Assembly: GCA_021838445.1 (NCBI GenBank)
Contig: JAKCDU010000020.1
Span: forward strand, 1-64,000
Reading direction: 5' to 3'
Length of the DNA: 64,000 nucleotides
Origin: Actinomycetes bacterium
GTDB lineage: Bacteria; Actinomycetota; Acidimicrobiia; Acidimicrobiales; Palsa-688
Shown piece by piece: positions 552-54,106 of this stretch. Numbering within the stretch: the stretch's first letter is position 1; every line of letters starts with the position of its first letter. The translations under genes and the position numbers were made by a program. Under the pieces are notes generated by a model, which saw only the letters and a program-made list of their open reading frames with translations, was not told where the DNA came from and ran no database searches.

Positions 552-1523
552 GTGCTTACCGCGTCGCTCCTCGCCTACATCCCCAGTCCGCCGGCCAACG
601 GAATCAGCATCGGCGGTCTGCGACTGCACGTCTACGGGCTGATGATCGCCCTCGGCATCGTCTCGGCGGTGTGGCTGTCCCAGAGGCGTTGGACGTTGCT
701 CGGCGGCGCGCCCGGGACCATGTCGATGCTGGCTGTGTGGGGAGTACCGGGCGGCTTGATAGGCGCCCGGATCTACAGCCTCATCACCAGCTGGCAGGTG
801 GACACCGCCGGGCACTGGCTGTGGGGCTTCGAGATCTGGCGGGGTGGTCTGGGGATATGGGGTGGCGTGGTCGGCGGTATCGCTACCGGGGCCATCGGCG
901 CCCGCCGGGCCGGGCTGAGCCTGGCTCCCCTGGTGGACTGCGTGGCCCCGGCCTTCGCGCTGGCCCAGGCGGTGGGCCGCTGGGGCAACTACTTCAACCA
1001 GGAGCTCTACGGGTGGCACTCGAATCTGCCCTGGGCGGTGCAGATCGACCACCCGAACGGCTCCAACTCGCCGGCCGCCACCTTCCAGCCGACGTTCCTG
1101 TACGAGTCCATCTGGGACCTCCTGGTCTGCGTCATGGTCATCCAGGTCGAGCGGCGCTACCGCATCCGTCGCGGCTATCTGGTCCTGTCCTACGCCGCCC
1201 TGTACACCTTCGGGCGTTTCTTCACCGAGTGGATGCGGATCGACCCGGCCCACCGGTTCTACGGGCTGCGGCTGAACGACTGGACCAGCGTGGGGGTCTT
1301 CGTGGTGTCGGCCGCCATCCTCCTGCTCTTCGGCCGGGCCCAGCCCGGCGAGGACTGCGCCGGCGATCCCCTGGTCAAGGGGACGCCCGCCGGCCTGGCG
1401 ACCGCCGGGGGCACCGCCAACGGGACCGCTGAGGCCGGGGAGGATGTCGGTGCGGCCAAGCGCGGCGGCGAGGACACCGGGGGTCAGGAGGCCGCCGTCG
1501 GCCCGGGACGCACGCCCACGTAG
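552..1523 (+). CDS. lgt: Prolipoprotein diacylglyceryl transferase
   Basis: Lgt transfers diacylglycerol from phosphatidylglycerol to the lipobox cysteine of prelipoproteins in the cytoplasmic membrane. The protein (323 aa) has several hydrophobic segments and the Lgt signature around GRWGNYFNQE near residue 145. The GTG start sits just upstream of the first membrane segment. About 70 residues at the C-terminus are Ala/Gly/Glu-rich and lie beyond the usual family length. The last 40 bases overlap the 3' end of the convergent citrate synthase-like gene. Confidence 0.93.
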   Translation: MLTASLLAYIPSPPANGISIGGLRLHVYGLMIALGIVSAVWLSQRRWTLLGGAPGTMSMLAVWGVPGGLIGARIYSLITSWQVDTAGHWLWGFEIWRGGLGIWGGVVGGIATGAIGARRAGLSLAPLVDCVAPAFALAQAVGRWGNYFNQELYGWHSNLPWAVQIDHPNGSNSPAATFQPTFLYESIWDLLVCVMVIQVERRYRIRRGYLVLSYAALYTFGRFFTEWMRIDPAHRFYGLRLNDWTSVGVFVVSAAILLLFGRAQPGEDCAGDPLVKGTPAGLATAGGTANGTAEAGEDVGAAKRGGEDTGGQEAAVGPGRTPT

Positions 1524-2785
1524 TCCGCTCGACTGCGGAAGCGGGTGGGGGCGGCGTACTCCTCCATGGCATGCGCCAGCCACCCGGCGATCTTGCCGAG
1601 CGTGAAGATGACCTGGCCGGCGCCGGGGCCCATGTCGGCGCAGAAGGACAGAGCTCCCAGGCCCAGGTCGAAGTTGGGCTCGGGGAAGTGCCGCTCGGCG
1701 CCCAACTGGACGATCCGTTGGACCAGTTCCAACCGCGCCGGGTCGCCGATCCCCTCTAGCCGGCTCAGCAGTTCCGCCCCCCGGGGATCCCCGCCGGGGT
1801 ACAGGGGCATACCGAATCCGTGGGGAACCCCCCCGCTCCGACGAAGGCGCTCACCGATGGCCCGCTCGACGCCCACCTGGGTGGCCTCGGCCAGCATCAT
1901 CTCCACCTCTGTCGGAGCGCCGGTACTACCGGCGTAGGAACTGCCCCGGGCCGGTCCCAGCCCGGTGAGCACCACGGCGTAGGGATCGGCCCGGAATGAG
2001 GCGGCCACCCTCGCCGCCAGGGTGGACGGAGCCAGCTCGTGATCGGCGGCCAGGACCAACGCCGCCTCGACCGCGTCCACGCCCCGCTCGGCGTCGCCGC
2101 CGCCGGCGCGGCGACCACCGGTGAGGGCGTCCCACAGCCGGTGGCTGATACGGGCCCCGGTGGTGGGCTCCCGGTCCCCCCCTCCCAGCGAGCGGCTGAG
2201 CAAGCCCAGCAGGGCCCGGCTGGTCACCGCCAGCCCGGAGGGGGTCAGGTCGTGGCGGAGCTGGTCCCCCAGCGAACCGGCGACGAGCACCACCATGAAC
2301 CGCTCGAGCAGGCCGGTCGCCCGATCCAGGTCGGCCAGGGCCCGCCCCGCCCGGGCCGCCACCGCGGCCGGGACCTCCCAATCGACGGGACCGGTGGGCC
2401 ACTGACCGCTCCAGAGCCACTCGGCCACCTCCTCGAAGGTGGCCGACCGGGACAGCTCCACGGCATCGCGGCCCCGGTAGTAGAGATGGCCGTCGGCGAT
2501 CAAGGTCAGCTCGGTCACGAACACGGGGTCCTCGCGGATCGTCTCCGCCTCGCCGGGCGCGGCCCGCGGGATCCGCGCCCGCGACGAGCGTGCCGACGGC
2601 TGACCCGGGCCGCCGGGGCGGCGCGACGTCCGGGACAGCTCAATGACCTCCTGGAGATCGAAGAAGCTGCCCCTCCCGGTGCGCTCCGGGTGGAGCAGGC
2701 CGCGACTCACGTAGGCGTACAACGTGGCCGGCTTCACCCCCAGGCGTTCCGCCGCCTGACGGCTGCTCAACCTCCGATTGATCAT
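1484..2785 (-). CDS. HTH-citrate synthase fusion, probably non-catalytic regulator
   Basis: Residues 5-50 form a MerR/excisionase-type helix-turn-helix (SSRQAAERLGVKPATLYAYV). From about residue 75 to the end (433 aa) the sequence follows the citrate synthase fold. The two active-site histidines are missing: the GPLHGGA box reads GSSYAGS, and GFGHxxY reads GFGMPLY. The Asp box is present as PNFDLG. I infer that the synthase domain binds a ligand (acetyl-CoA, oxaloacetate or similar) and steers the HTH. The gene is divergent from a citrate synthase with both histidines intact, and a 16-bp palindrome lies directly before its ATG, which suggests autoregulation. Weak catalysis cannot be excluded. 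Confidence 0.8.
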   Translation of the reverse strand: MINRRLSSRQAAERLGVKPATLYAYVSRGLLHPERTGRGSFFDLQEVIELSRTSRRPGGPGQPSARSSRARIPRAAPGEAETIREDPVFVTELTLIADGHLYYRGRDAVELSRSATFEEVAEWLWSGQWPTGPVDWEVPAAVAARAGRALADLDRATGLLERFMVVLVAGSLGDQLRHDLTPSGLAVTSRALLGLLSRSLGGGDREPTTGARISHRLWDALTGGRRAGGGDAERGVDAVEAALVLAADHELAPSTLAARVAASFRADPYAVVLTGLGPARGSSYAGSTGAPTEVEMMLAEATQVGVERAIGERLRRSGGVPHGFGMPLYPGGDPRGAELLSRLEGIGDPARLELVQRIVQLGAERHFPEPNFDLGLGALSFCADMGPGAGQVIFTLGKIAGWLAHAMEEYAAPTRFRSRADYVGVRPGPTAAS

Positions 2786-2801
2786 TGATCAATATTGATC
2801 A
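2778..2801. promoter_or_regulatory. Palindromic operator between the two citrate synthase genes
   Basis: TGATCAATATTGATCA (2786-2801) is a perfect 16-bp palindrome, and TTGATCA occurs three times as a direct repeat (2778, 2785, 2795). The site touches the ATG of the HTH-citrate synthase gene and lies about 30 bp before the citA ATG. It would be able to control both divergent promoters. The HTH-citrate synthase is the obvious candidate ligand; this is inference from position and symmetry. Confidence 0.6.
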
Positions 2802-2829
2802 GTATCCAGGTGGCGGTCAAGATGACCCT

Positions 2830-3993
2830 ATGACCCCTGACACCGATCACCTCATCGACGTCCCCGCCGGCCTCAAAGGCGTCGCCGTCACCGACACCAC
2901 CGTCGGTGACGTGCGGGGCCGGGAGGGCTTCTACCACTACCGCCAGTACTCGGCCCTCGACCTGGCGGCCAGTCGCCCCCTCGAGCACGTGTGGCAACTG
3001 CTCCTTGACGGGCACCTGCCCGCCACCAGCACCGACGCCGAGGACTTCGCCGCCGAGACGGTCACCGGGCGGCGCCTGCCGCCCGAAGTCGAGCGGGTTC
3101 TCCCAGAAATCGCCCGGGCGTCGAAGGGTACGCCGCTCGACGCCCTGCGCAGCGCCCTGTCCCTCTACGGCTCGGCTCGGGGCTACCAGCCGCTCTGGGA
3201 CCTCGACGGGGAGCGGAGGCGGGCCGACCTGCTCGATCTGGTCGCGGCAGCACCGGTGCTGGCCGCCGGGCTGTACCGGCTGAGCCGGGACCTGGCACCG
3301 GTCCCCTCCGACCCGGCGCTCGGCCACGCCGCCAACTACCTCCACATGCTCACCGGCGTAGCTCCCGGGGAGGACGCGGCCCGGGCCTTGGAGCAGTACC
3401 TGATCCTCACTGTCGACCACGGGTTCAACGCCTCCACCTTCACGGCCCGGGTGATCGCGTCCACCGGCGCCGACGCCGCGGCCGCGGTGGTGGGCGCGCT
3501 GGGCGCTCTCTCGGGGCCGCTCCACGGGGGCGCCCCGAGCCGGGCCCTCGACACCCTGGACGCCATCGGCACGGCCGAGGGTGCCGAACCCTACGTTCGG
3601 GCCCTGCTCGGTCGCGGCGAGCGGGTGATGGGTTTCGGGCACGCCGTCTACCGCACCTTCGATCCCCGCGCCGTGATGATGCGGGAGGTGGCGGTCCGCA
3701 TCGGCGCACCCCTCGCCGAGCTGGCCGTCGAGGTGGAAGCGACCACCTTGAGGGTCCTGGCCGAGGACCGCCCCGACGCGCCCATCTACACCAACGTGGA
3801 GTACTACGCCGGCGTGGTCATGGACGCCTGCGGCCTTCCCCGTGAGCTGTTCAGCACCACCTTCGCCCTCAGCCGGCTCATCGGCTGGTCGGCCAATATC
3901 GCCGAGCAGGCAGAGCAACGGCGACTGATCCGACCGTCGGCCCGCTATGTGGGCCTACCGGCGCCGGCTCCGGTACCCGCTCTGACCGCGTGA
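2830..3993 (+). CDS. citA: Citrate synthase, CitA-like
   Basis: Condenses acetyl-CoA (or propionyl-CoA) with oxaloacetate. The protein (387 aa) has both catalytic histidines, in GPLHGGA and GFGHAVY. The third catalytic residue is Glu instead of Asp (TNVEYYAG), as I recall for mycobacterial CitA. The N-terminal GDVRGREGFYHYRQYSA block is typical of this branch. A TTG at 2785 is in frame, but it would lie inside the palindrome, so the ATG at 2830 is preferred. Divergent from, and probably controlled by, the HTH-fused paralog. Propionyl-CoA from the steroid genes later in the window makes 2-methylcitrate synthase activity possible; the sequence does not decide. Confidence 0.87.
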   Translation: MTPDTDHLIDVPAGLKGVAVTDTTVGDVRGREGFYHYRQYSALDLAASRPLEHVWQLLLDGHLPATSTDAEDFAAETVTGRRLPPEVERVLPEIARASKGTPLDALRSALSLYGSARGYQPLWDLDGERRRADLLDLVAAAPVLAAGLYRLSRDLAPVPSDPALGHAANYLHMLTGVAPGEDAARALEQYLILTVDHGFNASTFTARVIASTGADAAAAVVGALGALSGPLHGGAPSRALDTLDAIGTAEGAEPYVRALLGRGERVMGFGHAVYRTFDPRAVMMREVAVRIGAPLAELAVEVEATTLRVLAEDRPDAPIYTNVEYYAGVVMDACGLPRELFSTTFALSRLIGWSANIAEQAEQRRLIRPSARYVGLPAPAPVPALTA

Positions 3994-53649: not shown

Positions 53650-54106
53650 GGACCACCCCGAGGGCCCGGCGGTGACCGGGGACCCCATCGAGGCGCGTCT
53701 GCGTCGACTGGAGGATCTGGAGGAGATCCGCCAGCTGTTCATCGACTACGGACAGCTGCTCGACCAGGGCGATTTCGCCGCCTACTCGGAGCTGTTCGCC
53801 GACGACGGGGAGCTGATGCTGGGACCGCTCGGGCGGGCCCGGGGGCGCGCCGAGATCCAAGCCATGATGAGACGGGTGGGCGGCTCGGGCGGCTCGCTGC
53901 ACCTGATAACCAGCCCGGTGATCGACCTCGACGGCGACCGGGCCCGGGCCCGGGTCATGTGGACGGTGATCAATCCCGCCGGCGACGCCAACCCCGTAGT
54001 CGGCATGGTCGGTCACCACGAGGACGACCTCGTGCGGGAGCGGGGCCGTTGGCGCTTCGCCCGACGTCGGGGGTTCGTGGAGATACCCACCACCGTTCGC
54101 CGCTGA
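53639..54106 (+). CDS. SnoaL/NTF2-like protein
   Basis: 155 aa. NTF2-type pattern: EDLEEIRQLFIDYGQLLDQGDF, ELFADDGELMLG, and strands ARARVMWTVINPA and GRWRFARRRGF. GTG start overlaps the ipdC stop by 11 bases. Last gene of the rightward transcript. Role unknown, presumably steroid-linked by context; a second NTF2-like gene lies at 44.7 kb. Confidence 0.75.
   Translation: MSSEDHPEGPAVTGDPIEARLRRLEDLEEIRQLFIDYGQLLDQGDFAAYSELFADDGELMLGPLGRARGRAEIQAMMRRVGGSGGSLHLITSPVIDLDGDRARARVMWTVINPAGDANPVVGMVGHHEDDLVRERGRWRFARRRGFVEIPTTVRR

Follow-up and report, generated by a model that had tools for sequence, protein, structure and literature searches.

Is a citrate synthase (CS) homolog that carries a helix-turn-helix (HTH) and lacks both catalytic histidines still an enzyme, or does it regulate the citrate synthase gene that lies divergently beside it? 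The question is raised by the gene at positions 1484-2785 of the minus strand (ATG at 2783-2785, stop codon included) of the whole 64-kb stretch of DNA analyzed here (the window). We approached it through features that sequence can show: domain architecture, lost residues, conservation of the operator, promoter-like geometry and purifying selection. With a probability of roughly 0.8, the encoded protein (HTH-CS) is a local one-component regulator, most likely a repressor, whose noncatalytic CS domain would sense a di- or tricarboxylate.

The open reading frame encodes 433 amino acids with Pfam matches to both MerR and Citrate_synt. Pfam and predicted secondary structure delimit a MerR-type winged HTH (residues 5-54; 2624-2773, minus strand), in which the MerR, MerR_1 and HTH_17 models cover residues 6-49, the MerR HTH model PF00376 scores 29.6 bits against a cut-off of 28.2, and Y23, Y25, S27, R28 and G29 are invariant among 23 relatives. 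A flexible linker follows (residues 56-85; 2531-2620, minus strand; pLDDT below 50 across most of residues 56-84), and then a CS-fold domain, the proposed sensor (residues 86-428; 1502-2530, minus strand), assigned by its structural match to solved citrate synthases and matched by Citrate_synt (PF00285) at residues 87-412 with 136 bits against a cut-off of 27. The AlphaFold model (mean pLDDT 86.7) has the same three parts, winged HTH, disordered linker and CS fold, and VIA-align superposed it on solved citrate and methylcitrate synthases with Z of 30-36 and rmsd mostly of 2.3-4 Å over about 315-340 residues. The protein did not reach the cut-off of the curated NCBIfam citrate synthase model TIGR01800 (97 bits, cut-off 421), and a separate GltA-type CS is present in the home genome. 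As for the surroundings, lgt (prolipoprotein diacylglyceryl transferase, 552-1523) is convergent with the HTH-CS gene, their 3' ends overlapping by 40 bp. A tRNA-Val (gac) lies at 404-479 on the minus strand, and the adjoining positions 1-316, judged by eye, look like the C-terminus of a tyrosine recombinase, a possible integration site.

The divergent neighbor is a citA-like citrate synthase gene (2830-3993, plus strand; Pfam 344 bits) and is the gene proposed to be regulated. Its nearest solved relative is Bacillus subtilis CitA (2c6x, E 8e-76). The reading frame opens at TTG 2785, but ATG 2830 is the start indicated both by relatives and by promoter geometry. Numbered from that ATG, both catalytic histidines are present (His232 and His271), as the earlier note had claimed. 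The catalytic Asp375 position (pig numbering, as for all CS positions below) is occupied by Glu324, as in the solved CitA proteins of B. subtilis and Mycobacterium tuberculosis; Glu was found at this position in 45 of 61 CS rows.

Between the two genes lies the perfect palindrome that had been pointed out before, TGATCAATATTGATCA (2786-2801, not stranded), which abuts the HTH-CS start codon and is conserved among loci; its core is ATCAATATTGAT (2788-2799). We regard it as a putative operator, for which there are no binding data. Only one further perfect palindrome of at least 16 bp occurs in the window, a GC run at 53938. Among 61 related genomes, 8 contain the exact sequence TGATCAATATTGAT, in every case at the HTH-CS locus, and its reversed control gave 0 matches, so the palindrome is not a product of chance. 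Across ten loci, pairwise identity reached 90% in the 16 bp of the palindrome versus 38% in the next 13 bp of spacer. Relatives were sampled from the 61 related genomes, a 246-genome sample of the phylum and 80 further loci from public genomes, and HTH-CS genes proved widespread in the first two sets. Within the 260 bp preceding the HTH recognition segment, the strict core RTCAAYRTTGAY was located upstream of 98 of 112 actinobacterial HTH-CS genes. The remaining 642 kb contained it 4 times and did not contain the reversed control. A looser core, RTCAANNTTGAY, raised the upstream count to 101 of 112 including the home locus, leaving 11 loci without the exact core. These counts span several actinobacterial families and are not phylogenetically independent, Nonomuraea and Nocardia being over-represented. 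On annotated plasmids the core, mostly as GTCAATCTTGAT or GTCAATATTGAT, preceded 13 of 14 HTH-CS genes and occurred nowhere else in those loci. Among the plasmid genes from outside Actinomycetota (proteobacterial or Deinococcus) the fraction was 11 of 12, and plasmid loci with the core include Agrobacterium, Ensifer, Chelatococcus, Azospirillum, Niveispirillum, Roseomonas, Comamonas and Deinococcus. The home genome (3.99 Mb) holds a single copy of the strict core, at the HTH-CS locus. A broad regulon was considered and rejected, as the strict-core search of that genome returned this site alone and relaxed searches gave scattered matches.

The position of the palindrome relative to the predicted promoters bears on how the protein might act. 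The proposed HTH-CS promoter (2792-2820, minus strand) consists of a -35 element TTGACC (2815-2820), a 17-bp spacer and a -10 element CAATAT (2792-2797) placed 6 nt before the ATG of a leaderless transcript. The proposed citA promoter (2795-2823, plus strand) consists of TTGATC (2795-2800, within the right half of the palindrome), again a 17-bp spacer, and CAAGAT (2818-2823), also 6 nt before the ATG. The same layout was observed for both genes at all 12 nearest loci: TTGAnn-N17 (once 18)-CAAnAT (once CAAACT)-N6/7-start, on opposite strands and overlapping. A pattern scanner reported one promoter-like site in the intergenic region, on the minus strand. If these predicted promoters and leaderless starts are correct, the palindrome doubles as the -35 of citA and the -10 of HTH-CS. 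A second conserved element, GTCAAnAT (2815-2823; GTCAAGAT at 2816-2823), is located about 28 bp from the palindrome center and resembles half an operator; one relative (L023) has a complete TCAATATTGA palindrome at this place, which leaves room for binding at two sites.

Since the HTH matches MerR families, HTH-CS could be a classical MerR-like activator that untwists an over-long promoter spacer. MerR activators target promoters with spacers of 19-20 bp and place their operator inside the spacer. The predicted promoters of this locus show neither feature: both spacers measure 17-18 bp, and the palindrome lies over a -35 and a -10 rather than sitting between them. Near-optimal 17-bp spacers with an operator over the promoter hexamers argue for repression, and we consider activation of the MerR kind unlikely.

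Whether the CS domain still catalyzes a reaction was examined by mapping the active site in alignments with 61 CS rows. These bore out the earlier note on the HTH-fused paralog: Tyr284 (codon at 1934-1936, minus strand) takes the position of the catalytic His274, and Met326 (codon at 1808-1810, minus strand) that of the catalytic His320. Of the catalytic triad of His274, His320 and Asp375, only the last is therefore retained, as Asp373. The mapping of Tyr284 and Met326 rests on sequence alignment because loop 282-287 of the AlphaFold model has pLDDT below 50. Eight proteins from independent assemblies share the loss of both histidines, so the substitutions are not sequencing errors. In this clade position 274 is Tyr, Arg or Ala, position 320 is Met in 8/8 (and in both members of the sister group), and the oxaloacetate-binding Arg401 is replaced by Lys in 8/8 (Lys398 here; codon at 1592-1594, minus strand), a position that is Arg in all 103 other HTH-CS rows. 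Moreover, the CoA-contacting R324 position is Pro in the clade (and variable family-wide), and the His274 loop carries a three-residue insertion. Residues H238, R329, D375 and R421', which form the oxaloacetate-binding set of pig CS, are invariant in 8/8. This pattern fits a pocket that would still bind a carboxylate after the chemistry was lost, an inference from sequence.

We give little credence to a bifunctional trigger enzyme, that is, an HTH-CS that combines DNA binding with continued synthesis of citrate or of some other Claisen product. Such an enzyme would be in keeping with the wider family, most members of which keep H274, H320 and D375, and with an additional histidine, His322 (in PHGFGM, four residues ahead of Met326), that is invariant in the histidine-less clade. 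As the 282-287 loop is not confidently modeled, the position of His322 with respect to the pocket is not resolved, and an unusual active site cannot be fully excluded. Against this stand the residues lost from the clade itself, and also losses elsewhere in the family: H320 is missing singly in other HTH-CS lineages (L135, L046, L073 and L047), and a long-branch Burkholderiales member (L171, plasmid p1 of Caballeronia insecticola) lacks H274, H238 and D375 by motif inspection. Caulobacter CitA no longer showed CS activity in complementation once its counterpart of His320 was replaced (H303A/W; PMC7083601). The L171 protein is an independently degenerate HTH-CS, divergent from an MFS transporter gene, and might be a sensor of an imported acid.

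The history of these losses was resolved in a maximum-likelihood tree, in which a 100/100 branch separates all HTH-CS proteins from true citrate synthases and the eight proteins lacking both histidines form a single clade, also with 100/100 support. In their sister pair (L012 and L013) only H320 is gone, replaced by Met. This suggests that H320 was probably lost first, followed by H274 and R401. Across the family H274 is kept in 103 and H320 in 98 of 112 distinct rows, which rules out histidine loss as the defining mark of the regulator and implies that both the fusion and the operator predate the loss by far. Since most relatives keep both histidines, an ancestral activity is possible. The proposal made in the earlier note, a transcription factor built on the CS fold that controls citA, thus gained comparative support, but the loss of the histidines did not create the regulator. 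Relative to its nearest relative (94% identity), the HTH-CS gene has a whole-gene dN/dS of 0.17 (NG86) or 0.11 (YN00), similar to that of citA (0.22/0.11), and its HTH part has a dN/dS of 0.055. The gene is under purifying selection and is maintained rather than decaying.

The identity of the divergent partner varies between lineages. It is a CS in many Actinomycetota, Rhizobiaceae, Chelatococcus and Niveispirillum, an HMGL/homocitrate-synthase-like enzyme in Nonomuraea and Dactylosporangium, a protein annotated as pyruvate carboxyltransferase in Deinococcus, a CoA transferase in Azospirillum and Comamonas, a DUF2332 protein in Nocardia and Roseomonas, and an MFS transporter in Caballeronia. 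The homocitrate-synthase-like HMGL proteins of Nonomuraea and Dactylosporangium (L040, L060 and others) fall below all named NCBIfam cut-offs and could be Re-citrate-synthase-like enzymes. A constant operator with changing partners is expected of a local regulator and is hard to reconcile with a subunit or enzyme role. This bears on a further alternative, a hetero-oligomer of HTH-CS and CitA that mainly modulates CitA activity, with DNA binding secondary. CS is an obligate dimer in which R421' is contributed across the interface, HTH-CS keeps this residue, and the neighboring gene often encodes a CS. Nevertheless, the many relatives that adjoin unrelated genes (HMGL, CoA transferase, DUF2332, MFS) still keep the operator, and we give this alternative as little credence as the trigger enzyme. 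Similarly unlikely is that the palindrome is merely two overlapping promoter elements, whose -35 and -10 the core does overlap, or the site of another factor such as MtrA, which binds the intergenic region shared by the putative citrate synthase genes SCO5831 and SCO5832 of Streptomyces coelicolor in EMSA (PMC12323332). The left half (TGATCA, between the -10 and the ATG) is conserved without a promoter role, the core accompanies HTH-CS genes of different phyla beside differing partners, and it does not fit the published MtrA site TTGACTTAACTGTCCA.

The cross-phylum operator, the interlocked promoters, the conserved HTH, the retained dicarboxylate anchors, the lost catalytic histidines and the varied partners strongly favor control by HTH-CS of the divergent gene and of its own gene. 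In the absence of binding, expression or activity data, DNA binding, repression as opposed to activation, the identity of the ligand and the loss of catalysis remain inferred. Under the proposed mechanism, the dimeric CS domain would perform no catalysis and would bind a small di- or tricarboxylate, such as oxaloacetate or a relative. The dimer would bind the palindrome at 2786-2801 through its MerR-type HTH and, by covering the citA -35 and the HTH-CS -10, may shut off both genes together, and ligand binding by the CS domain would alter this repression.

HTH-CS resembles the MocR/GabR regulators in being a one-component regulator, often local, with a converted metabolic enzyme as its sensor. 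On the other hand, those proteins combine a GntR-type winged HTH with a PLP-dependent aminotransferase fold, whereas HTH-CS joins a MerR-type HTH to a CS domain without PLP; by its Pfam domains it does not meet the definition of that family. The pair also recalls B. subtilis citR-citA, in which the LysR regulator CitR is divergent from the minor citrate synthase CitA. In both cases a divergent regulator stands beside a secondary CitA-type citrate synthase, but CitR is LysR-type and not a CS paralogue. SCO5831/SCO5832 (citA3/citA4), which the literature presents solely as putative citrate synthases under MtrA, are probably the same divergent pair as that of the window, the SCO5831 sequence being unchecked. 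Adjacent CS paralogues that resemble this pair also occur in Caulobacter, where CitB complements an Escherichia coli gltA deletion and CitC does not (PMC7083601); an HTH in CitC is unverified. The window protein belongs to an unnamed set with the same architecture that NCBI annotates as enzymes ("citrate synthase family protein"), other members of which differ from the window clade in not having lost both catalytic histidines. Open-access full texts yielded no account of an HTH-citrate synthase regulator, subscription papers being outside the scope of the search.

The family is widespread, with a conserved site in at least three bacterial phyla, and is apparently undescribed. We think it probable, with less confidence than for the local regulator, that HTH-CS proteins make up a family of transcription factors, spread over several phyla, in which the CS fold serves as a sensor of oxaloacetate-type carboxylates and one ancient operator, RTCAANNTTGAY, controls a divergent gene handling acids or acyl-CoA, the window clade being an end state without catalysis. 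This wider family and its shared operator are more interesting than the histidine loss alone. To our knowledge, few oxaloacetate sensors are known, and a CS-fold sensor with a short, defined and portable operator would be open to direct testing and could serve as a biosensor. The window clade maps residue losses onto a tree, from enzyme-like proteins to a histidine-free regulator. If the family reading is true, many citrate synthase annotations would in fact denote transcription factors, which would affect metabolic models and explain citrate synthase paralogues without activity.
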